From a virus, in IMG/VR virus record IMGVR_UViG_3300044691_000099, positions 1-26,540 of that record: a stretch of DNA of 26,540 bases. The stretch is one strand, 5' to 3'. Every line of letters starts with the position of its first letter. The first letter of the stretch is position 1. The notes under the pieces are model-generated. The model was not told where the DNA came from and did no database searches. It saw nothing but the letters and a program-made list of their open reading frames with translations. This document shows positions 5,530-25,701 of this stretch, one piece after another. The translations under genes were made by a program, and so were the position numbers.

Positions 5530-7752
5530 TCAAAAGTCTGCTTCAGCGCGGTAGGTAACTTCAACCACGTTCCCAGAGCCGGTCGCGACTGCGGAAATAG
5601 TGCAGCCGGCCGTTGTCGCCCCTTGTGCGCTCGCAGCGAACGGGTTCGTGCCGCCGCTGGGCGACGCCACTACCAAAGGCGTGGAGAGGAATAGACCCGA
5701 TGGGAAATTGACCGGAGTATTGCCAGTGAAATTACCTCCAAAGCCCGTACTGCATGTCACATTTACTTTGGCCTGAATGACGCGCTTTTGAATGGACACA
5801 TTGGGGCATGCGTTCGAAAGTGGATTTGCCAAATTCCGATAGGTCACCGCACCAATCGTTCCGATGTTGCAGGTCGCATCGATCAAAATGCCGAACTGGG
5901 ACCCGGTGCTGCCAATGCAATTCCCGCCATCGATCGTGAATGTGTCGACGTGACTAAGTTCGATACATGAGCCCGTTCCGGGTGCTACCACGATATTGAA
6001 GCCGGTAATCGCTATCTGGCTGAACGCCCCTGACGAATCCGTGCCGATACCTCCACTGCCTCCCGCGCCAGCTCCGCCACAATTAGCAATCTGCAGGTTA
6101 TTCAACACGATCGCGCCGAACGTATTGGCTCCTGAGGTCCGGCCGAGAAAGACTGCAAACCCCGTCATGTTTTCGATCGAGGTGTTGTCGATAAGCAGAT
6201 CGCCGGTCGTCATGTTGCCCGTGAAGGACAGAACATAACCGTTGGCGCCTCCGAGCAACTTGGTATTGGTAATCTTCAGGCCGCCCGACGCATTCTGCTG
6301 GATAGCAGTGCCAGTGCTGATCGTCGTCGACAGGAACGTGTCGGAGATGAATGAATCGCCCGAGTCAGCAACGTTGGTGTTGTCAACAAGGATACCGACC
6401 GCAGAATAGTTATAGCAGCGGAATTTCGAGATCGCGAACTTGCTAGCCGCACCGAACCATATCCCGGTTGGCACGTTGAATACCATCGTGTTGTCCAGCA
6501 CCGCGTACTGCACCTCGCTAGAGGCTGGCGGATTGAAGTAGATGCCTGCGCCAGCGCTCTTCTGCGTGGGCGTGGAGCACTGCAGCAGGAAGTCCCTGAA
6601 TAGCGGCGTACCGGTGCTGAACAGTTGCCCCGTGTAGGTGATCAGATTGGCCGCAGTGGCATCGATAGACGTAAGGATCGATTGACCAATGCTATCCCCG
6701 ATAATCCCGCCAGCCGCGAAACTTATCGTGCTGAACTTGTACAGGCCAGCGGGGTAGTAAATCAGCCTACCCGTGTTGTGAGCCGCCTGCATGCCAGTCG
6801 TTGAATCCGCCACCCCGGTAGGATCAACTCCAGGGAAGTCGAGCACAGATACTATATCGCTGAGTTTCGACAGTACCGTTCGTTGTCCCGACCCAGCGAC
6901 GCTGCTCTTAAATGCCAGCTTCGAGCTGTTGATATTTGCACCGGCCGCTACGCTCACGTCCGTCACTGTCCCCGCACCGGGCGTGCCAACGGTCGCCGTC
7001 GTTCCGCCTTTCACATTGACTTCTAGCGTGCCAACCGGGATCGGCGCATTAAACGTCAATACGAAGCCGCTCAGGCTGTACTGGTCGGGACCCTGAGAAC
7101 CGGCATCGAATTCGACCCACAGATTGGACTTGGCGCCATAAAATCCTACGAGCGTCAGGCTTGTGCTGAAACCCGGTGCAAACTGCAGTGCGCCGGCCGC
7201 ACCCATGGGTTCGCTTATGACGGTCTGCGGCGTGCTGACGGTGTAAGTGCCGGCGCCGCCCGTGCCCGTTCCCAGCGCGGTAATCGTAGTGCCCGCGGTG
7301 ATGCCTGCACCGAATAGCGTCTGGCCGACTGCTAGCGGCGCACCGCTTGCGAATGCGCTAACCGTCAGCTGGTTTGTGGTGATCGAACCCGTGAAGTTAG
7401 GACCCGCAAGGAACGGCCCTTCATCCGTCATCTGACCGGTCGCTGACGTGCCCTGCGCCGTCACATTATTGGCGACCCAAATCTGATTCCCACTGGCGTC
7501 TTTAAGCGTGAGCGTGTACGTGACACCTTGTGCCAGATAGAGTTCGGATGACACCCCCGATGTGTTCGAAATCTCGCCGCGTGAGTTCAGGGGGATCGGA
7601 TTCGGGAGCGGGGTGGTGCCTGCTGCATCCTGCCACGTCGGGTAGTTGACGCTTCCGACCTGCGTCAGAAGGCTACCGCCGACATTCATCAATCCCGCAT
7701 TTGAAAAGAACTGCAGGATTGGCGTGGGTGCTTGCGCGACGCTCTGTGCCAT
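5530..7752 (-). CDS. tailspike with pectate-lyase-like beta-helix
   Basis: This 740-residue protein occupies the P22 gene 9 position, after the ejection proteins. Residues 1-105 ([20 protein letters not shown], then [20 protein letters not shown]) are the usual N-terminal virion-binding segment of phage spikes. Residues about 112-185 are a Gly/Thr-rich beta module. Residues 192-252 form a module shared with the protein at 13878-14681. From about 300 the [20 protein letters not shown] entry marks a pectate-lyase-superfamily right-handed beta-helix, which runs to about 660 with repeated short strands (N-T-x and G-x-x-I turns). The C-terminal 75 residues are a compact beta end-domain. Spikes of this kind bind and often cleave surface polysaccharide. 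The start overlaps the preceding stop (TAATG) and has AAGGGGAA upstream. Confidence 0.88.
6997..7179 (-). repeat. tailspike copy of a shared ~60-residue module
   Basis: Codons 192-252 of the tailspike encode SLTL-x3-YG-x3-NLWV-x-FDAG-x-QG, then Y-x-LSG-x2-LTFNAPIP and VKG. A second copy, over half identical by eye, lies at 13983-14171 in another structural gene. The pattern looks like a small beta-sandwich. See the matching entry for comparison. Confidence 0.8.
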
Positions 7753-10391
7753 TAAGGATTCCCCTTGGTGCTTTTTAATAGTGAGTTCAGCGGAACGCCC
7801 TTCGTCTGATTGCCAAGACGCGCATTGTTTTGCATTTCTTCGTTGACGGATCGGAGTTGTTGGGACGCGCGCTTGCCGCCTGCGAGATTGGAAATACCGG
7901 TTCCTATGCGTTCACCAGCCGCGGCACCGAGCCAACCTGCGCCAGGGATCGGAATGGCTCCGCCGATTGCTGCGCCAGTTGACGCACCAGCGGCGGGCGC
8001 ATACTTTTCCACGAACCCCGGCTTATTGAGGCGTGCGAGTTGATTGCCAGCGCCTTCATACGAGTGGACGCCGGGCATGATCTGGCCGCCGTAGTTCAGC
8101 GTATGGAAGGCCTGAACTTCATCTGGCGGGAAGGTGCGCGCGATCTTCTGGCCCACCGACGAGTTGAGCGTCTTATTGACCGAGTTCTGATTCCATGCTC
8201 CGGCCTTGTCAGCGCCAGCCTCAAAGACTGAGCGCGCCAATGAACCGTGCATCTCATTGAGAGCCTGCCCAGCGGCCTGCTGCACCTCGGTAGGTACTGG
8301 CGGCATACCTTCGGGCGCACCGCGCACCTGACCGCGGGAGAGATCGTCGAGCGTGTCGTGAATGTGCTGCCACTGATCCAGCGGCATTGAGTTCAGCTTT
8401 GTCGGGATGCTTTCAAGAGACGGACCGGGCTTGATGCCATTGGCGTCGTATTCGCCGAGCACCGAACCAATCCCCTTGGAATCGAGCAGCGTCTTTTGTA
8501 CCTGGTGGATGCGATCCCCCAGCTTGTACATTTCGTTGCCGCCGGCCGCCGCTGTATCCCGATCGATCGCGCTGTTGATCTCCCGTATCGTGCCGGCGGT
8601 CGCTGGGCTCCAATTCGAGTTCATCGACTTGCGTACGGCGTCCCACGCGGCCACGCTGCCCGGCGGGTACATCTCGCCCGATACCGGATCTTTAAAGCCT
8701 GTTTTACGCGCCAGATTGATCAGGTCCTGCGCGCCAGCAAGCGCGCTGTCATTGCCACGCAGACGCACGCCGGCCTGAAACTGCGGGTCAGAGAACAGTT
8801 TGTCGACATGCCCCGTTTGAATTGGGTTGTCGCCCTGCGTCGCGCGCGCGGTATCGAAGATCGTTTTCTTGGCATCCTGAAGATACGAACTCAGGCTGTT
8901 ATCTGGGCCGTACAGCGCATCGTTGATAACCCGGCCGCGCTCTTCGTTGGTCCCGATAACCGGGCTTGCGCCCGTGGCGTTCACGCGCTGCTCGGCGTAG
9001 TTCGATAGCGCCTGCTGTTCATTGGCGATCTGGCCGCGAATAGCCTGCGTGACCGGCGTTTGATTCGGTGTCTTCGCCGCGGCGTATTCATCGCGCAGCG
9101 TATTTTCGTTACCCGTCCGGACGCCAGTGCGAACCGCGCCCGCGTTCTCGCCCATGATCTGATTGGCGATGTCCACGCGCACGCTCTGCTCCTGCGGAGT
9201 CACGTCTTGCGCCATCTTCGAAAGCTTGACCTGCGGGAATGGCCCGCGAGAGGCTTCCTCACCCGTCAGTTGCGGATAGGGATTCAGGTTTGCCGAGGCT
9301 GCGCCGCCGCCCACGATGGGGCGCTCTGCCATTGCTGGTCCGGTGGGCGTGACAGGCGCTTGCGGGCGCACATTCATATCGTCGGCTGCGGTCGCTATTG
9401 CGGCATCTCCCGCCACGCGCCCGACTGACTTCAGTGCACCGGGCACTGCCAGAGACAGCGAGCCGGCCATGTTCGCCACGTCCTGCGGCGCCGCGCCGGT
9501 CGCGCTCGCTACTGCATTGACGCCCTTGCCGACTACGCCGCCCACGGCCTGCCCGAGCCGCTGCGACGCCTCGTTCTGATACCCGGGTGTGTTCGTGACG
9601 CCAAACGCATTGCCGACAGGATGAACAGCGCCGCCGAAGTCGCCCTGAGACGCCGCCTGAGCCTGTTCGGGGCTTTGCTGGAATGCACGGCGCACGGCAT
9701 AGTCGGCAGCGCCAGCAGCAGCACCGGGAGCGCTCAGGAGTGTATCGGCGAGTCCTGCCGAAGCTTGGCCGAATTGCTTGAGCGCACCGACTTGCGGTTG
9801 CTGCGGAGCGGCGGGAGCGGGCGTGGCCGGCGCGGGAGCCTGAGCAGTTTTAGGCGCGCCCTGCTGAAGCGTCGAAAACAGATCCGACATCGGCCCGGTA
9901 TCAGCCGGCGCTTGTGCGCCCGAATTAGATTGACCTGGCGTCGTCGGAGCAGGCGCCACGCCGTTCATGGCCTTCGCGACATACTGAGTAGGGTCAGCGT
10001 GCACGAAGCCGCCATAAGCCTTCAACGCGCCTTCGTAGGTGCCGCCAGTCTTCCCTTTGAGCTGCTGCATGTAGTAGTCAGCCGCATTGCGCGCCTGAAC
10101 CGGGTCAAATGGATCGAACTTGACGCCTTGCTGATGCAGCATTGCGACCGTCGATGGCGTGAACTGATACGGGCCCATCGCCTGAGTCGTCTTATTGATC
10201 GCATACGAGTTGCCGCTGCTTTCCTCGGCCCGTAGGTTATCGAGCAGCTTTGCGGGCGTGCCGTAGCTCTTCGTCGGATCAAATCCACCAGATGCTTGAG
10301 GCGCGGGCGCAGCAGCAGGAGCAGCCATTAGTGCAGCAGCCGGCGGGGCACTCGGATTCGCACCTTGGATCGTGGCGAGCAGATCATCCAT
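7752..10391 (-). CDS. ejection protein with lytic transglycosylase domain (P22 gp16 position)
   Basis: The 879-residue virion protein carries an SLT-type lytic transglycosylase domain near its N-terminus: [20 protein letters not shown] with catalytic E57, then [10 protein letters not shown], through about residue 135 (LKAYGGF). It would cut the peptidoglycan locally while DNA enters the cell. A Pro/Ala/Gln-rich linker (about 143-205) follows, then a long mostly helical body, and a Gly/Ala-rich hydrophobic stretch near the C-terminus ([20 protein letters not shown], about 810-850) of the kind that inserts in membranes. It is the last and largest of three consecutive ejection-type genes before the tailspike, matching P22 7-20-16-9 order. 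Start and stop are joined to neighbours by TAATG overlaps. P22 gp16 itself lacks this enzyme domain. Confidence 0.82.
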
Positions 10392-11905
10392 TACTCAAGA
10401 CTCCCGCTATTCGAGAGCTTCTGAAGGTTCTGCGCCTTCTGCATCATGGCGTTATAGCCCTTCGAATTCAGGCCGCCTAGACTCTTGACGACGGCCTGCT
10501 GCTCGGCGGTGTCGCCCGACTTGATCGCGTTGTAATACTTGAAGATGTTCGGGTCGAAGTTCGCGCCCCATTGCTGATCGAATTGACGCTTGGCGAATAC
10601 GCCTGCCGACGGGTTCGATGCAATCGCACGCTCAAGACCGGGCTGGTAGGACTGAACACCTGTCGTCAAGGCATCGTTGAGTTTCGTGACTTCCTTGATT
10701 GCTTGCGGTGTGTAGCCCAGCGATCCATTGGCTTTGATCTGCGCATCGAGACCGGCATTCGTGTTCGGCCCCATGCTCTGCGCCGCCTGCAACGCCGAGC
10801 GCTCAAGACCCTTGCCGACGAGGTCGTATGCGGTGGCTGCGTCGGAGTTCGGATTGACACCAAAGCCGCTGAGCAGGTTGCGCGCCTTTATGCCGAGCGG
10901 GCCAGTAGCCGCAACCTGGTCGATGTTCTGCAAGACAAGTTGATTGTTCGTGTGCGCTGCACCGGCATTTGCATACGCGCCGCGTGCCGTCTCGCGCTCG
11001 GCCGAAAGACCGGGAAGCGCCTGCGCATCGCCCGGTTGCGGCACATAAACGCCCTGCGTCGGCGCGTTCGTGATGCCCGTGACTTGCCCCTGCCCATTCT
11101 TGTTGACGACAACAGGACCACCCGTAAGGCCGTTCGTGCCGACATTTGAGCGCTCGCCCAGCGGGACACCCTGTGCCACTTCCGGACCGACTGCACCCAT
11201 CGGCGTAGCGGAATTCGGATTGGTCTGGAACGGCTGCACGCCACCGCCGGGGCCAGTCGTGGTGCCCATCTGCGGAGCCTGCTGTCCGGCGGTCGTCGCG
11301 GCTGGCTGGAACTCCATCGAAAGATGCTGCAGCGCTTGATCGCGCTGTGCCTGCGGCATTTGAGGACTCAGGTGCTGAAGCAACGCTTGAGCGCGCGCGA
11401 TAGCCGGGGCAGCATTCGGATTCTGCTGTCCGTAGGCACTGAGTGCCGACCCGATCGCAGAAGGGTCCTGCGTGCCGATCCCGGAACGCACGATTCCAGA
11501 GATGTCATTTCGAAAGTTCTGGCCGAGGCTGCGAACGGAATCATTAAGCAGCAAGCGGTTATTCATCGTCGAAATGATCGACTGCTGTACGCCCTGCCCT
11601 GTGAGCGGCAGATACTTGTTCGCGAAACCAGCGAGCTTTGTGGGATCGACTTCGCCATCGGCCCCTTTGATCGGGTTGCCGTCCGGGTCTTGACCGCTCG
11701 CCATGGCCTTCTGCAACAACTGACGCTCCTGCATCTGCTGCTGTGCCTGTTGAGCCTGACCGGCGCCAACCTGAAGCTGTTGCGCGCCTTGTTGAAGCGA
11801 CTGCTGCTGCTGAGCGACACCCATCAGACCCGAGAGAGTCTGGATTGATTGCTGAGCGTTGGGTGGCGTAATTTGATCTGCTACGGGTGCGCCGAAATCC
11901 GCCAT
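10391..11905 (-). CDS. ejection (internal virion) protein, P22 gp20 position
   Basis: The 504-residue product is rich in Gln and Ala, with a long Gln-heavy helical N-terminus (residues about 18-62, QSLQQGAQQLQVGAGQAQQA), a Pro/Gly/Asn-rich disordered middle (about 205-290), and a helical C-terminal third (about 320-490). It has no signal peptide or membrane helix. Composition and place between two other ejection-like genes fit the gp7/gp20/gp16 group of P22, which are injected with the DNA and form the conduit across the envelope. A GGGGCC tract precedes ATG 11905. The assignment rests mainly on gene order, as these proteins diverge fast. Confidence 0.65.
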   Translation of the reverse strand: MADFGAPVADQITPPNAQQSIQTLSGLMGVAQQQQSLQQGAQQLQVGAGQAQQAQQQMQERQLLQKAMASGQDPDGNPIKGADGEVDPTKLAGFANKYLPLTGQGVQQSIISTMNNRLLLNDSVRSLGQNFRNDISGIVRSGIGTQDPSAIGSALSAYGQQNPNAAPAIARAQALLQHLSPQMPQAQRDQALQHLSMEFQPAATTAGQQAPQMGTTTGPGGGVQPFQTNPNSATPMGAVGPEVAQGVPLGERSNVGTNGLTGGPVVVNKNGQGQVTGITNAPTQGVYVPQPGDAQALPGLSAERETARGAYANAGAAHTNNQLVLQNIDQVAATGPLGIKARNLLSGFGVNPNSDAATAYDLVGKGLERSALQAAQSMGPNTNAGLDAQIKANGSLGYTPQAIKEVTKLNDALTTGVQSYQPGLERAIASNPSAGVFAKRQFDQQWGANFDPNIFKYYNAIKSGDTAEQQAVVKSLGGLNSKGYNAMMQKAQNLQKLSNSGSLE

Positions 11906-11908
11906 GAT

Positions 11909-12688
11909 TTAGGCCCCTGTCGTGAAATAGTTCGTATTGCCTGCGGCAGTAGTGCCATAGGACGGATTCGCAGCAGCAGCAGAGTTGTTATTCAAGATGC
12001 TGCTGAGCGCGTAACCACTGCCTGCGTTGCTAATGCCACTGCCAAGCGCATTTGCGGCGCCGACCGTGCCGGCTGCCTGAGATGCGCCCGCTGCTGCTGT
12101 TGACTGTGCTGCGCCGGTACCAAGTGACGTGCCGGCCGTGCCGACATTGCTTGCCGCGTTCTGACCGAGGCCCGCGATTCCAGATAGGCGCGAGAAGATG
12201 TTGTTCTGCTGCGTCTGCTGCGCGTTGAAGTTGGTGTTGTACTGACTCTGGGCCTGATTGAAATAGTTGTTGTAGTACTGCTCTGCATTGCCCGTTGAGT
12301 AGTTCGTCAAGGCCTGCAAAGCGGGACCAGACAGAGCGCCCACGTTCGGCGCTATTGCGTTCTGGGTTTGTTGCAACCCTTGAGTCTGCGAAAACTGATA
12401 ACCCGGCGAGCTGGTGATGCTCGATGGATCAAACGAAAAGGGAGTGGAAGTCTGATTATTAAGATACCCGCCCGGAGCGGTCATGCTACTAAGCTGATTC
12501 GTCGCAGTAACGCCAGCATTCATGAACGGCTGTTCTTGGCCGTTGATAGTGTCGAACATCCCCTGCTGCATAGCAGTAGCGTTGTTCTGCGCAGACGCTT
12601 GAGTATTGGCCGCCGATTTCGCACCGGCTGCTCCGATTACGCCACTAATAACCGCGCCGCCTACAACGGCTGTTGCTATGGCAGACAT
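11909..12688 (-). CDS. ejection (internal virion) protein, P22 gp7 position
   Basis: The 259-residue protein starts with a Gly/Ala-rich hydrophobic segment (VVGGAVISGVIGAAGAKSAA), followed by a Gln/Asn-rich helical region (NTQASAQNNATAMQQGMFDT) and an Asn/Gln/Tyr-rich low-complexity middle (about 150-190, YYNNYFNQAQSQYNTNFNAQ). Similar proteins in many podoviruses are annotated as DNA transfer or injection proteins. It is the first of three consecutive ejection-type genes, ahead of the gp20- and gp16-position proteins. ATG 12688 has a near-perfect AAGGAGG four bases upstream, the strongest ribosome-binding site in this stretch, and lies 13 bases inside the end of the preceding gene. Confidence 0.65.
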   Translation of the reverse strand: MSAIATAVVGGAVISGVIGAAGAKSAANTQASAQNNATAMQQGMFDTINGQEQPFMNAGVTATNQLSSMTAPGGYLNNQTSTPFSFDPSSITSSPGYQFSQTQGLQQTQNAIAPNVGALSGPALQALTNYSTGNAEQYYNNYFNQAQSQYNTNFNAQQTQQNNIFSRLSGIAGLGQNAASNVGTAGTSLGTGAAQSTAAAGASQAAGTVGAANALGSGISNAGSGYALSSILNNNSAAAANPSYGTTAAGNTNYFTTGA

Positions 12689-13533
12689 GCGTCCTCCTTG
12701 ATTTTGATGCCGGATAGAGAAAGCGCCTGTCGGTAATCAATTGTGATTTCTTCGCCGTCCTGCCCACCGTGGCATCCAGTGATTGGCCGCAGCGCGCACA
12801 AATCGACATCCCCATTCAGGAGAAGAACCATTTCCGCATTCGGTGCTTTTGCATGATTCGTGTAACGGCCTGCGGGAGTACGTTTGCCGTCGATGCGCGC
12901 CGGAGCGATCAGTTCGCCTGAGCCAATGGGCGCGGTCGCAAATAAACCGGTTCCTTCGATGGCCGATGCGCCGGTCTTGACTCGCCATGCGCCGAACGGG
13001 AATGCGCACTGGTCGCCCTCATTCTCCGACTGCGCACGCGCTGTTTCGTGGCTGAAGCCAGTCTCTTCCAGCATCGCCAGATAGTCGGCCTGGTCATCCT
13101 CGCGCGGCTCGCTATGCTGTGATTGAGCAAACCCTTCGCTCTTTTCGAGAAACATCGCCTCGATCTTCTGAATGTCGGTTTCTTCAGTCGCGTAGATGTT
13201 CTGCCAGACGACATCTTCGAGCACATAGCCCGCCTTGCGCCCCGGCTTGCCGACGAACATCATCGGCGCGACCAGTTCATCGGTACTGCCATCGTCCTTC
13301 AGCATCAGCACGCGCCCTTTCAGGAACACGTTCAGATGGTCAAATTTCTGGTAATGCCCAATGGCGAGAATCCCCGTCGGCATGTGCACTTCGCGCACAC
13401 AGAGCCCCGGCCCGAAATGGTGAATCACCGAGCATTCGGCTTGCGGGAGTTGGAGCATTCCGGCTTCTGCCTTCGCTAGATCGCGCGACTGAAGCGCGTC
13501 AACAATCGCGCCGCTGAGTGAGGTGAGCATCAT
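12676..13533 (-). CDS. cupin-SET fusion protein (putative lysine methyltransferase)
   Basis: This 285-residue two-domain protein has residues about 33-130 forming a cupin-like barrel: VIHHFGPGLCVREVHMPTGI, then GHYQKFDHLNVFLKGRV and VGKPGRKAGYVLEDVVWQNI. A charged linker of about 50 residues follows, then a compact SET domain (about 181-275). SET marks visible are GTGLFA (194-199) for the S-adenosylmethionine loop, NHAKAPNAE (226-234) in place of the classical NHxC-x-PN motif, and GEEITIDYR (260-268) with the catalytic tyrosine. SET proteins methylate lysine side chains. The cupin half resembles stand-alone phage proteins I know as uncharacterised. The gene lies at the P22 gene 14 position, coupled to both neighbours, so it is late-expressed; its target, and whether it is packaged, are unknown. 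Confidence 0.78.
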   Translation of the reverse strand: MMLTSLSGAIVDALQSRDLAKAEAGMLQLPQAECSVIHHFGPGLCVREVHMPTGILAIGHYQKFDHLNVFLKGRVLMLKDDGSTDELVAPMMFVGKPGRKAGYVLEDVVWQNIYATEETDIQKIEAMFLEKSEGFAQSQHSEPREDDQADYLAMLEETGFSHETARAQSENEGDQCAFPFGAWRVKTGASAIEGTGLFATAPIGSGELIAPARIDGKRTPAGRYTNHAKAPNAEMVLLLNGDVDLCALRPITGCHGGQDGEEITIDYRQALSLSGIKIKEDACLP

Positions 13534-13868
13534 TGGATGATGATTCCAGAGGCCGTAAAGCTCACCGATGCGGCGGCGCCCGCAAAGGCGTGAAGCTGTG
13601 CACCCTGAGGAATAACAGCGCCCGCTAGTTCAGGCGAAACGTAGGATTCGCCGGGGGCAAGAGTTCGTTGAAAAATCATGGTGGTCGACGCTCCGAGTGC
13701 TCCACCGGCAGTAATGCCAGCAGTGATGGTGATTGCACTCGCCGCGGTGTTGGTGAACACCGCACGACCTATCTGAGCGGTCGTGTTCGTAGGCGGAGAA
13801 TATAACGACGCGTCAGCCGCGCCAAGCAATACGGGGGGTACGAGTTGGGAAGGGGTGATAGTGGTCAA
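13530..13868 (-). CDS. small beta-rich structural candidate (112 aa)
   Basis: The gene begins with TTG at 13868, supported by GGAG six bases upstream and the lack of a better start. The product has no cysteine, few charges and a repeating Thr/Ala/Gly beta pattern (FTNTAASAITITAGITAGGA, then a PGESYVSPELAGAVIPQGAQ section), which suggests a small beta-sandwich like those decorating heads or tails. It ends with an ATGA-type overlap into the cupin-SET gene. The position between the needle-slot protein and the ejection module suggests a virion part, but no family was recognised. Confidence 0.6.
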   Translation of the reverse strand: MTTITPSQLVPPVLLGAADASLYSPPTNTTAQIGRAVFTNTAASAITITAGITAGGALGASTTMIFQRTLAPGESYVSPELAGAVIPQGAQLHAFAGAAASVSFTASGIIIQ

Positions 13869-13877
13869 GGGAATCTC

Positions 13878-14681
13878 CTATGCCGGGAGGAACGCAACCG
13901 TCGGCGCGCTCGTGTATGTGATCTGCACTTTGTCGAGACGCCGCAATGGCACGAGGCCGCCTGATGCGCTGATAGTCGACGGGCTGGCACCCTTCACGAA
14001 GACGATTCCCGTGAACGATGGAATAGGGGCGTTAAAGGTCAGAGTCGTGCCGCTCAAGGTGTAGCTATTAGCGCCCTGCTCGCCAGCGTCGAATGCCACC
14101 CAGAGATTGGCCGCACTGCCGTAGTTCTTCGAAAGCGTGAGCGACGTCGTCGTGCCGGCCGTGAAATCGACACCCGCGACAAACCCAGGCTGGCCGCCAG
14201 AACCTTTCTCGTCTGCCAGGCTGCCTATGGCGCTCGCGCTCGATGACGTGATGCCGGTGGCAACGGTGACGCCCTGCCGAATGATGGAAACGCTCGACAC
14301 CGCGCCGCCGGTCACCGAGAGCACACCATTCGCCAATGCTGTGTAGGTGAATGGCGAGGCTCCGGGCGTGACGGCCTGCACCGGCTGCGCGGCGGGTGCT
14401 GGATCAGGCAGAAGCGTGTTGCTCCCGGCGAGTGCCGATAAATTGGCGATGCGCCGATAGGCCTGCGGGATATCAGCGGCCTGCGCGAATAGATTGGCCG
14501 CATCAAGCGCATCGTAGGGGGATGCTGGCGTCGACCCATTACCACCTGTGCCGAACACTGATTTCGACAGGTTGTAAAGCCAGAGATACCAGTTGATGTC
14601 TACATAGGCAGGTGCGCCGCCATCCACCGCCTCTATGAACGGCACGCTCTGTTGTGGGATCTGATTCGGTAGGCCGCTCAT
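13878..14681 (-). CDS. structural protein in the tail-needle slot (267 aa)
   Basis: The start overlaps the stop of the gp10-like gene (ATGA). In P22 this place is held by gene 26, the tail needle. Here the N-terminus (residues 1-45, with PYVDINWYLWLYNLSK-like aromatic helix) could plug into the gp10 ring; residues 50-110 are Pro/Ala-rich; the rest is beta-rich. Residues 171-233 form a module shared with the tailspike (see repeat entry). The long coiled coil expected for a P22-type needle is absent. It may be a needle substitute or a fibre adaptor bringing a knob-like beta domain to the tail tip. This is a positional inference only. Confidence 0.6.
   Translation of the reverse strand: MSGLPNQIPQQSVPFIEAVDGGAPAYVDINWYLWLYNLSKSVFGTGGNGSTPASPYDALDAANLFAQAADIPQAYRRIANLSALAGSNTLLPDPAPAAQPVQAVTPGASPFTYTALANGVLSVTGGAVSSVSIIRQGVTVATGITSSSASAIGSLADEKGSGGQPGFVAGVDFTAGTTTSLTLSKNYGSAANLWVAFDAGEQGANSYTLSGTTLTFNAPIPSFTGIVFVKGASPSTISASGGLVPLRRLDKVQITYTSAPTVAFLPA
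13983..14171 (-). repeat. needle-slot copy of the shared ~60-residue module
   Basis: Codons 171-233 encode SLTLSKNYGSAANLWVAFDA, then G-x-QG, Y-x-LSG-x2-LTFNAPIP and FVKG. Reading against the tailspike copy at 6997-7179, about 31 of 55 aligned positions are identical by eye. The two copies are almost 7 kb apart in genes of different overall build. Confidence 0.8.
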
Positions 14682-16288
14682 GCTGAACTGAACGCTTTGA
14701 TAGTCGCGCCGACGAGATCGCGATTGACTGGGTCAATGACCTCGATATCAACCACATTGTCCCGCCCCCAGCCGAGCTTTCGCCACATCGTGCGCGTGCG
14801 ATATTCGCCGATCTTTCCCAAGGGGCGAGAAGTTCTGTCTCCGAACGTGTTCCCGCCGTCGCGCGATATAGCGAGCGTGCACTGAGGATTAGAGCCCATG
14901 CCGCTAGCGTTGCCCTGCCCAACGTTGAAATCGAGTTGCAGCGTCTGCATGAACACGCGCCCGCGCTGCCCCTTGTCCCATATGTGCGGCGCGCGGCGCT
15001 TGGCGAGCAGTGGCCAGCCCGCGTCGGTATAGGAATTGCGCGTGAGCTGGTAAAGCGCTCCGTTCTGGTAGTCGCCGACGATGCGCATACCGGCAAAATT
15101 CATGAATGCATTCGAACGGTGCCGATGAAACGCCTGTGCGTACGGGTCATAGGACAGGCGCTTGTGCAGCAATCCAGACTGCCCGTCATAGACCCAGGTC
15201 ACATCGGCGGTCGGGAACGTGAGCACATAGAACTCGTGCGTGTCTTCCTGATAGGTGTAGGCGACCGCGTCATCGGTCGTCGCGTACATCGCTACTTCGT
15301 CGCCGAATGAAGCCGTGGAGACGACCTGATCCTGAAAGCCCTGCGTTTTGATGATGACGTTCTCGCCGCGTTCGGAGCGGCCGAACCACATGAGGCCCTC
15401 TCCAAAGCGCGCAACCGAAAACTTGGCTTTACAGCCCACCTGAATCAGCGTGCCGACAATGCGTTGAAATGCGAAGGTCGCGCCGACGCCGCCAGGCGCA
15501 CCGCCCGCGTTGTACCAAATTTCCGTGGTCTTATCGCCGATCAGCCAGAGCAGTTCCTTGTTTTCCCAAACGGCGATGAGGTTGTCTGCTGCAGCGTCTT
15601 TCAGTGCGAAGAACAGTGCATTGAAGGTGAGGCTGTACGGCTGCGAGTTCGAATAGAACTCTTGCGTGCCCGGTTTGTTGAAGATCCACCAGCCGTCGAT
15701 GTAGGCGACCGTGTCGGAACCTACAAAGTTCGGGTCGGTGATTTGCGAGAATGCGCGCGTCGAGATGTTGTACAGGTAGCCATTCGGGCCATCTACGATT
15801 ACCGCATTGCCGCCGCCCGTGTTGTTATCGCGGATGCACACCGGGCCGCTGCTCGTTTGAAGCGTGCCAACCGATGTCAGTGACAGAGTCGGGAAAGCCG
15901 TTGGACCAGAATATATCGCCGTCACCAGATAGCAGGCGTTACCGATGACTGCGAGGGCCGTGGTATCAACGGTATTTCCGCTGATCGCGTCATTGTTCGC
16001 CGGCAGTTCCCACATTCCACGCACAGGCAGTGAGGGGCCGGAATAGGGCTGCGGCCATACGGTCATTGTCGAGGTAAAGCCGGGTGCGCCGCCGCCCGCC
16101 GCCGCGACTAGCTGGACGAGGCCGGGCGCGCCGAGCAGCCCCAGCACTTCCTTGGAGTTGCCGGGATCAACCTCAGGATAGAAGTTGATACAGATCTGAT
16201 CGTCTTGGAGATGGTTCGGCGCGGCGTCCTGGCCGCCAGCGAATCCCCAATCGCCGAAGAAATCGAGAGGTCCGTTTGAGCCAGCCAT
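14678..16288 (-). CDS. tail hub / DNA-stabilisation protein, P22 gp10-like
   Basis: The 536-residue protein follows the gp4-like gene directly (TAATG overlap). P22 gp10 (472 residues) forms the tail hub under the portal and holds packaged DNA. Marks of the family here are the N-terminal segment PNHLQDDQICINFYPEVDPG, the repeated blade-like pattern (VIVDGPNGYLYNISTRAFSQ, then DPNFVGSDTVAYIDGWWIFN), the GENVIIKTQGFQDQVVSTAS section, and a C-terminal CTLAISRDGGNTFGDRTSRP followed by GEYRTRTMWRKLGWGRDN. The last part is a very typical ending of podoviral gp10-type proteins. Blade repeats suggest a beta-propeller core. No signal or membrane segment is present. Confidence 0.82.
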   Translation of the reverse strand: MAGSNGPLDFFGDWGFAGGQDAAPNHLQDDQICINFYPEVDPGNSKEVLGLLGAPGLVQLVAAAGGGAPGFTSTMTVWPQPYSGPSLPVRGMWELPANNDAISGNTVDTTALAVIGNACYLVTAIYSGPTAFPTLSLTSVGTLQTSSGPVCIRDNNTGGGNAVIVDGPNGYLYNISTRAFSQITDPNFVGSDTVAYIDGWWIFNKPGTQEFYSNSQPYSLTFNALFFALKDAAADNLIAVWENKELLWLIGDKTTEIWYNAGGAPGGVGATFAFQRIVGTLIQVGCKAKFSVARFGEGLMWFGRSERGENVIIKTQGFQDQVVSTASFGDEVAMYATTDDAVAYTYQEDTHEFYVLTFPTADVTWVYDGQSGLLHKRLSYDPYAQAFHRHRSNAFMNFAGMRIVGDYQNGALYQLTRNSYTDAGWPLLAKRRAPHIWDKGQRGRVFMQTLQLDFNVGQGNASGMGSNPQCTLAISRDGGNTFGDRTSRPLGKIGEYRTRTMWRKLGWGRDNVVDIEVIDPVNRDLVGATIKAFSSA

Positions 16289-17286
16289 TATCTGTACCCG
16301 CCGTGAAGAATCCAGCCCCCATCAGCACGGTTCCCGCGCGTCAGTGCGCGGTCGTATTGCGCCACGCTGGCCGGCGTCGCGTTGAGCGCCTTGATGTAAT
16401 CGCTGGCCTCTTTGGCAAGCTTCACCAGCATCCCCGGAACCGTCACGGGGCTGATGTATTCGATCCAGATATCACGCGCGAGCAGCAGCTTGAGGCAGCG
16501 CGTATACCCCTGCGGCATGACCAGCACCTGATTCAGCGTCAGGTTACCGAGGATCGTGTCAGTGAAGATATGGCACTCAGAGCTATTCCCCGGCGTCTGG
16601 TAGACGTTCAGCAGGCCATAGGGAAACGTGTTGTTGTACCAAGCGACGGTTGGCCACGGCCCCGGCTGCGCCTTGTACAGGAACTGTGTGTATTGCGTCT
16701 CCGTCGCGCAGACATCGAGCGTGAAATCAAGCGAGTTGAAGCGCGTGAAGCCGTGCGTGATGCGCAGCGGGCGCGGGATCGGGAAGTCACCCGGCACGGT
16801 GAATGTCACGCTATCGAGGCCCGTCGAGTTGCCGATCGCGTTGGCGGACATCGTGACTGTATTGGCGCCGACCGCCGTCACCGTGGTATTGAGCGGAATC
16901 AGCCCCTGCACATCGCTCAGGATCGAACCTGAGCCGATCTGAAAGGCCGGGTTCTGTCCCGCGACAAGCTGCGAGGGCAGGTTCGTAACACCCGTGATGA
17001 CGTTCGAGCCCGACGTGAGCGTGCCGGTGAATGGTTGCAGGCCGAGCAGCGCACACGTCGGATTACCGACCTTGTAAAGCTTCTGCTGCGCGGTCCACGA
17101 CAGGATGTTTTCCTGCGAACCGAAGATGAACTGTTTGTCCGTGCTCAGGGAGTCCAGCAGATCGTTCAGCGTCTCCAGGCAATCCGTCTCGTCGTAGTCC
17201 GCGAGCTGTTCGCCAGACTGGTAGGAGTTGATCTTGCGCAAGGCGCTCTTGATAATGCCCAGCGCCGTAGTCGTGCCGACGGTCAT
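16288..17286 (-). CDS. tail adaptor / DNA-stabilisation protein, P22 gp4-like
   Basis: The 332-residue product sits between coat and gp10-like genes, as gene 4 does in P22. The N-terminal helical part (ALGIIKSALRKINSYQSGEQ, then CLETLNDLLDSLSTDKQFIF) and C-terminal helices (TRCLKLLLARDIWIEYISPV, then LAKEASDYIKALNATP) match the all-helical portal-adaptor fold. Between them about 100 residues of beta-type sequence (about 85-170, TLTSGSNVITGVTNLPSQLV) are inserted, so the protein is twice the length of P22 gp4 (166). The insertion may be a surface domain. The start is ATG 17286, overlapping the stop of the PASTA-like gene (ATGA). Confidence 0.72.
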   Translation of the reverse strand: MTVGTTTALGIIKSALRKINSYQSGEQLADYDETDCLETLNDLLDSLSTDKQFIFGSQENILSWTAQQKLYKVGNPTCALLGLQPFTGTLTSGSNVITGVTNLPSQLVAGQNPAFQIGSGSILSDVQGLIPLNTTVTAVGANTVTMSANAIGNSTGLDSVTFTVPGDFPIPRPLRITHGFTRFNSLDFTLDVCATETQYTQFLYKAQPGPWPTVAWYNNTFPYGLLNVYQTPGNSSECHIFTDTILGNLTLNQVLVMPQGYTRCLKLLLARDIWIEYISPVTVPGMLVKLAKEASDYIKALNATPASVAQYDRALTRGNRADGGWILHGGYR

Positions 17287-25104: not shown

Positions 25105-25267
25105 TCTTCTTCTCCAAGATGGCACGAGCCTGCGCAAAGAGACGATGGCGCTCTGGCTGGCTGACAGTCGCGACACAAAGCGCTTCCTCAATCCACTGGT
25201 TCTGCGTCGCGATAGCGGCAGCGATACGGGCGCGCTTGTGCATCTTTCTGGCTTGCTTGCGAGTCAT
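25091..25267 (-). CDS. small basic helical protein (58 aa)
   Basis: ATG 25267 overlaps the stop of the GroES-like gene (ATGA), and TAG 25091 lies 14 bases inside the next gene, so the frame fills the gap exactly. The product is basic and helical: TRKQARKMHKRARIAAAIAT, then NQWIEEALCVATVSQPERHR and a LFAQARAILEKKNATR end. It could bind nucleic acid or be a helical adaptor. It is too short to assign. Coupling and coding composition make it more likely real than the longer overlapping frame that begins at 25191. Confidence 0.6.
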   Translation of the reverse strand: MTRKQARKMHKRARIAAAIATQNQWIEEALCVATVSQPERHRLFAQARAILEKKNATR

Positions 25268-25701
25268 GCTGTCACCTCTTCATTGACCACGATCCCCGAC
25301 ACATCGGCCTCACGGCACACGATGTGCATAACGCTGCCCCACTGGATCTGCTGGAAGCTGTAGCCGGCGATGCGGCCATCGATATTCACCGTACCCAGTT
25401 CGACGATATCGCCTACCTTCACCTGCGTCGGCTGGAACGTACTGCTGCGCCACATCTTTGTGCGTCTGCCCTTCTCGTTGTCGTATCGGAGAGGGAAGTG
25501 CCCAGGGCCAACAGCCTTCACGATGCCGCGCACCGGTTTGATGTTCTCTATCACGGTCAGGATGCGCGAGTGCTCGATGCCAAGCGGCTCGACGACGATG
25601 TGATCATGCAAAGGCCTGATCTGCTCATCGGGCGCGATGTAGGTCAGCGAGCTCGACGACAGTTCGCCACCACGGCCATTGGCTGATAGTTTGAAGCTCA
25701 T
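25264..25701 (-). CDS. GroES-like co-chaperonin
   Basis: The 145-residue protein has the Cpn10 pattern after a 25-residue N-terminal extension: IRPLHDHIVVEPL (28-40), a mobile-loop region GIEHSRILTVIENIKP (41-56) with a hydrophobic ILT where GroES has IVL for GroEL binding, RGIVKAVGPG (58-67), KVGDIVEL (95-102), and EADVSGIV (131-138) like the ESDILAIV end of GroES. It is longer than GroES (97) because of the extension and an inserted basic stretch (about 74-92). Phage co-chaperonins such as T4 gp31 help the host GroEL fold large coat proteins, which fits its late-operon place before terminase and coat. GGAGGT lies eight bases before ATG 25701. Confidence 0.75.
   Translation of the reverse strand: MSFKLSANGRGGELSSSSLTYIAPDEQIRPLHDHIVVEPLGIEHSRILTVIENIKPVRGIVKAVGPGHFPLRYDNEKGRRTKMWRSSTFQPTQVKVGDIVELGTVNIDGRIAGYSFQQIQWGSVMHIVCREADVSGIVVNEEVTA

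Follow-up and report, generated by a model that had tools for sequence, protein, structure and literature searches.

A cupin-SET fusion protein in the ejection gene cluster of podophages: a candidate late-acting methyltransferase at the P22 gene 14 position

Identification of the gene and its family

The window, the stretch of DNA analysed here, comes from IMG/VR as a record of 26.5 kb and carries P22-type morphogenesis genes. It encodes an Sf6-type small terminase, a large terminase, a P22-type portal and a P22-type coat, and also a gp10-like head closure protein, a gp7-like ejection protein and an integrase. Next to the ejection protein gene, a single gene encodes a cupin-like barrel joined to a SET domain. 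The question raised by this locus is what such a protein does there: whether the SET domain is an active methyltransferase, what it would modify and whether it enters the phage particle.

The cupin-SET gene is the minus-strand open reading frame running from 13533 to 12676 (12676..13533, 285 aa), and the plus strand across this interval carries stops. The coordinates of the initial annotation were thus right, and the strand is minus. Against PHROGs, the whole protein was assigned to phrog_34170 (E 3e-92), a family of unknown function, and its N-terminal part to phrog_12032/24280, which are named 'short tail fiber'/'adhesin'. The sole Pfam match was to SET (PF00856; 23.4 bits against a cut-off of 22.4), spanning only the C-terminal half of the profile, and 46 of 50 relatives matched this family as well. 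No significant match was found by a PDB sequence search with the single window protein sequence, and the defence-system and NCBIfam searches with the protein gave no match.

A search for proteins with the same domain pair had been proposed with the initial annotation, and one IMG/VR scan returned 291 relatives. The phrog_34170 family is widespread and its carriers are freshwater and soil phages; cultured phages with relatives include Rhodoferax phage P26218 and Pseudoalteromonas phage PH1. The phrog_34170 members, for example gp30 of P26218 (MW202744 'pbcV-1 histone H3-lys 27 methyltransferase structure'), are full-length homologs located in the same slot before a gp7-like gene. The known members of this family carry no described function or mechanism. 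Literature searches on phage SET and cupin proteins and on the phrog_34170-type family found nothing relevant, and SET and cupin are nowhere mentioned in the P26218 paper. The cupin-SET proteins represent a real and widespread phage family that, going by these searches, has not been described.

Predicted structure and conserved motifs

The presence of a cupin-like barrel and a SET domain in one protein, proposed initially from the sequence, was confirmed by the AlphaFold model, Pfam and VIA. Structure prediction of both halves, which had been suggested as a check, was based on a 50-sequence alignment and resulted in a SET fold and a cupin barrel with a mean pLDDT of 92.5 and a pTM of 0.88. On the minus strand, the model contains a cupin/RmlC-like barrel (residues 31-117, 13183..13443), also supported by VIA and carrying the conserved residues H60, Q62, H66, E106 and W110. 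A helical linker, seen in the secondary structure of the model (residues 121-169, 13027..13173), is followed by a mini-SET domain without the SET-I segment, delimited from the model and comparisons (residues 178-280, 12694..13002).

VIA aligned the SET half with the MLL1 SET domain (Z 10.9 over 80 residues, rmsd 1.9, 32% identity) and with vSET (Z 9.9 over 80 residues, 34% identity). For the cupin half, the alignment was to cupins of the PpnP type (Z 9.9, 10% identity); its double-stranded beta-helix barrel matched PpnP and HP0902 (Z 9.7-9.9) and, by Foldseek, TM1459. A profile search of PDB sequences found MLL1, EZH2 and vSET, and weakly the TM1459-type cupins. Chance resemblance to SET was ruled out by the PF00856 matches in relatives, the AlphaFold fold and the VIA alignments.

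SET motifs I (GxG), III and IV, the last with its catalytic-position tyrosine, are all present and near-invariant in the 50 sequences. Delimited by conservation on the minus strand, these are motif I, S190-A-I-E-G-T-G196-L-F198 (12940..12966), motif III, R218-T-P-A-G-R-Y-T-N226-H227...P231-N232 (12838..12882), and motif IV, EEITIDYR with Tyr267 (12730..12753). Residues S190, I192, G194, G196, R218, G222, R223, T225, N226 and E262 are invariant (50/50); F198 is found in 48/50, H227 and N232 in 49/50 each, and Y267 in 49/50, the remaining row being truncated. The motifs GTGLFA (194-199) and GEEITIDYR (260-268) are as first described, while the middle motif had been given as NH-x4-PN and is actually NH-x3-PN (N226-H227-AKA-P231-N232). 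Omega of the SET half was about 0-0.2, like that of the cupin half (Nei-Gojobori, pairs with unsaturated dS), which indicates that purifying selection acts on the SET half.

A reduced SET domain

In cellular SET domains, motifs I and III are separated by a SET-I segment, which the window protein lacks. In known enzymes, SET-I contributes to the lysine channel and the substrate groove and helps to bind the substrate. The spacing from the GxG to the NH motif was 28 residues in 89/89 phage proteins measured; a host SET protein of a Paraburkholderia metagenome-assembled genome (MAG) has about 34 residues more, which make up SET-I and include YKGE and TFYF.

With vSET (PBCV-1 A612L, 119 aa) and the MLL1/EZH2 SET domains, the phage form has the fold and motifs I, III and IV in common. 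It differs from them in being without most of SET-I and without a Cys-rich post-SET, in being fused to a cupin and, in the main clade, in having a GC-x-GG-x-x-G insert before motif IV. This insert (residues 253-260, window 12754-12777, minus strand) is nearly invariant in the main clade, with the conserved residues G253, C254 (48/50), G256, G257 and G260, and is absent from the PH1-type copies and from two divergent copies, L247 and L251. Stand-alone SET proteins of Burkholderiaceae resemble the phage proteins in motif I (G[KR]G[VL]FA) and in an NH(S/A)-x2-PN-type motif; however, they retain both SET-I and a Cys-rich post-SET. When the phage profile was compared with 200 genomes of the family to which the Paraburkholderia MAG belongs, cellular SET proteins matched only with their C-terminal half, from about residue 43 on, and the mini-SET was found in that MAG only, at two loci. 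The two cupin-SET loci (L098 and L194) lie 83 kb apart on the MAG contig and apparently belong to two prophages.

Activity is expected mainly because the catalytic-position residues persist, and is doubted mainly because SET-I has been lost. The cupin-SET protein is somewhat more probably than not an active SAM-dependent methyltransferase. Alternatively, the SET half could be just a second binding or scaffold module within a morphogenesis chaperone, its SAM binding being vestigial or structural. The lack of SET-I in all phage copies would agree with this, as would the many phages that manage with cupin-only relatives. A pure scaffold would, however, be expected to lose some of the catalytic-position residues, whereas Tyr267, N226, H227 and the GxG are nearly invariant among relatives that are 51-61% identical to the window protein, and they are seen again in the PH1-type, L247 and L251 copies, which are divergent. 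A non-enzymatic role is accordingly considered rather unlikely.

The cupin half and the history of the fusion

The initial annotation regarded the pairing of SET with a cupin as unusual. The fusion is real, but its explanation differs, the cupin being the usual resident of the slot to which SET was added. Cupin-only homologs are common and hold the same slot in many podophages. Stand-alone mini-SETs in viruses were also considered and rejected, as nearly all viral loci retrieved with the SET alone carry a fused cupin; the exceptions are L207 at the edge of a contig, L209 with a split gene, and L229 (2905-3519), whose frame begins with SET and stops close to what resembles the start of a cupin. 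A complete gene of reversed order is found in L247 (2833-3705), with SET at residues 49-148 and the cupin at 139-271, located after a gp10-like gene and one intervening gene. In L251, a further, divergent cupin is joined to the mini-SET. A tree of 95 cupin rows, built from few columns and midpoint-rooted for drawing only, requires three changes of the SET label, of which the well-supported branches force at least two. These comparisons indicate that the cupin is the usual occupant of the slot and that SET has been added more than once, in either order. Such repeated pairing argues for a joint function of the two domains.

The cupins of main-clade proteins with SET (SET+) show H60-x-Q62...H66 and E106, whereas the cupin-only podophage proteins (phrog_12032, PHA00672 superfamily), with a homologous cupin in the same slot and no SET, show K60-x-H62...H66. 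Position 62 of the SET+ cupins is Q in 83/85 or Y in 9/10. Of the metal-type positions, H60, H66 and E106 are conserved, the classical HxH is replaced by HxQ, and no distal His is conserved among the positions tabulated for SET+ cupins. A metal site in the cupin is possible. It had been suggested that the cupin might be a lysine-oxidising half; this is not supported, because the HxD/E...H metal triad of JmjC and 2OG-Fe(II) enzymes is absent from the SET+ cupins.

Genomic neighbourhood

The genes around the cupin-SET gene follow the order of a P22-type ejection cassette on the minus strand. Upstream are located a tail accessory/adaptor gene (16288..17286), gp4-like from its position, the gp10-like head closure gene (14678..16288; phrog_578, E 4e-84) and, directly upstream, a gene for a 112-aa protein (13530..13868) which shares 4 nt with the start of the cupin-SET gene and is a frequent neighbour of cupin-SET genes. 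Downstream follow the gp7-like DNA ejection protein of 259 aa (11909..12688; phrog_598, E 1e-20), overlapping the cupin-SET gene by 13 nt, a putative gp20-position ejection protein assigned by position alone, with no family match (10391..11905), and a gp16-position ejection protein with an SLT transglycosylase domain (7752..10391; PF01464, E 9e-10). A large ORF occupies the tailspike position (5530-7752). The gp7-like protein of the window contains one Lys and one Arg in its 259 residues. Near the terminase genes, a 145-aa protein (25264-25701, minus strand) matches GroES/Cpn10 with an E value of 5e-4 and 20.4 bits (cut-off 21.1) and is a possible phage co-chaperonin.

The slot of the cupin-SET gene is therefore the P22 gene 14 position, between gp10/26 and gp7. 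Its placement there and its coupling to virion and ejection genes, both claimed initially, were borne out: the gene lies after the gp10-like gene and directly before the gp7-like gene, which it overlaps. A gp7-like ORF was directly downstream in 87 of 90 SET+ loci, some of which are near-copies of one another and so not independent cases; most of these ORFs overlap the cupin-SET gene, and they start -25 to +2 nt from its stop. This coupling shows that the cupin-SET gene belongs to the morphogenesis operon.

The same slot in other phages

The protein of this slot in P22 is gp14, described as 'head morphogenesis' (L292:2001-2453; NC_002371 8911-9366). The window protein has no match to its family, DUF2824, and the folds differ (cupin plus SET versus predicted GNAT). 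A model of P22 gp14 from 28 viral-contig sequences reached a pLDDT of 81.6 (five models, 57 to 82), the 50 Foldseek matches shown were all GNAT-type acetyltransferases, and VIA gave Z 15.9 against a GNAT over 145 of 151 residues. P22 gp14 is thus predicted to have a GNAT acyltransferase fold. T7 gp13 is possibly of this fold too, with weak hhalign support against GNATs (E 0.0012); a direct hhalign of P22 gp14 against T7 gp13 gave no signal. In phage vB_PaeM-G11, the ORF between gp12 and gp14 was annotated as an acetyltransferase by HHpred (PMC10142737). In the Bcep22-like phages JC1 and BcepIL02, the slot is occupied by a GNAT whose PDB profile matches are GNAT acetyltransferases, and the gene overlaps the next one in most relatives.

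P22 gp14 (DUF2824), T7 gp13 (PF11090) and the Bcep22-like GNAT (phrog_4470) have the gene slot in common with the cupin-SET protein and their products are likely not packaged, as is proposed for the latter; they differ from it in their GNAT fold (weakly seen for T7 gp13), with neither cupin nor SET. The cupin also extends to the T7-type arrangement. Sphaerotilus phage R1 carries a cupin-only gene at the T7 gene 13 position, followed by a T7_gp14-family protein, and at three other cupin-only loci (L101, L103 and L155) a downstream protein matches the T7_gp14 family above the cut-off.

Proposed function, candidate substrates and packaging

We propose, with a probability of roughly 0.45, that the cupin-SET protein is a late, non-packaged assembly enzyme. 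It would be expressed late, from the slot preceding the first ejection-protein gene of podophages. The cupin half, as the ancestral resident, would most likely dock on a morphogenesis partner or help it to fold, and the added SET half would bind S-adenosylmethionine and methylate one or more lysines of a phage morphogenesis protein during virion building, the enzyme itself staying out of the virions. A late lysine methyltransferase is plausible because of the SET fold, the SAM-pocket motifs, the morphogenesis operon and the P22 gene 14 slot, and the assembly reading is further supported by the protein-modifying GNAT folds found in this slot in Bcep22-like phages and, by prediction, in P22 gp14. 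Against it stand the missing SET-I and the lysine content of the nearest candidate substrates. Among 81 gp7 homologs of SET+ phages, no column had at least 80% Lys and five proteins had no Lys at all, which rules gp7 out as an obligatory lysine substrate and leaves no conserved gp7 lysine as the target. The suggestion of a late lysine methyltransferase stands as plausible, without gp7 as a substrate of that obligatory kind. The gp10 homologs of SET+ phages likewise had no column with at least 80% Lys, and the gp20/gp16 homologs (7-9) were too divergent to align for lysine conservation. The gp4-position adaptors have conserved lysines, K205 and K299 (window numbering), and the adaptor may be taken as a lead to the substrate, drawn from SET+ phages only.

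The same lack of conserved lysines in gp7 and gp10 would suit a late enzyme with a host target, for example a ribosomal or nucleoid protein, for which the slot is merely convenient for late expression. The slot GNAT of JC1 was likened by its authors to RimL, which acetylates ribosomal L12 (PMC9144972). However, a host-takeover gene that is free to move would have no need of the strict coupling to an ejection gene observed in 87 of the 90 loci, or of the place that cupins without SET keep as well, and we regard a host target as unlikely.

The initial annotation also considered that the protein might be packaged and injected, modifying host proteins early in infection, and its gene does adjoin genes of ejected virion proteins. 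Virion proteomics nevertheless lists the neighbours and not the slot protein: in JC1, gp61 and gp64 were listed and the GNAT gp63 was not (PMC9144972), and in the T7-like phage phiPsa17, homologs of T7 gp6.7, 7.3, 8-12 and 14-17 were listed and gp13 was not (PMC4517105). T7 gp13 is also never mentioned in a T7 virion cryo-EM paper (PMC11784390). These are slot proteins of other folds, not cupin-SET proteins; by analogy with them, packaging of the cupin-SET protein is improbable, and an injected effector is very improbable. A short tail fibre or adhesin, suggested by the PHROG and GenBank names of the cupin part, is hardly credible: the slot is that of the ejection cassette (in Sphaerotilus phage R1, the place of T7 gene 13), the tailspike position is taken by another large ORF, and a literature search traced the adhesin name to no experiment.

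If the assembly-enzyme reading is true, a phage lysine methyltransferase of the SET type with a link to virion assembly would, going by the searches, be a novelty, and a SET domain that dispenses with SET-I would represent a naturally occurring minimal version of an enzyme fold that has been studied intensively. More speculatively, and with low confidence, podophage ejection cassettes could carry a dedicated gene for covalent protein modification, either a GNAT (P22, T7-like and Bcep22-like phages) or a SET (the cupin lineage). The surface of SET-I would then be supplied by the cupin or the client, and the mark, placed on a morphogenesis protein, would let the ejection machinery assemble or be released correctly. 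The slot comparison also leads to a testable idea for P22 gp14 and T7 gp13, proteins to which no role more specific than head morphogenesis or probable scaffold has so far been assigned: both may act as protein acyltransferases or descend from such enzymes. Inside the ejection cassette of Bcep22-like phages, the GNAT is followed by a PAPS reductase (JC1, L290 2925-5090), and the JC1 authors call these two genes morons (PMC9144972).
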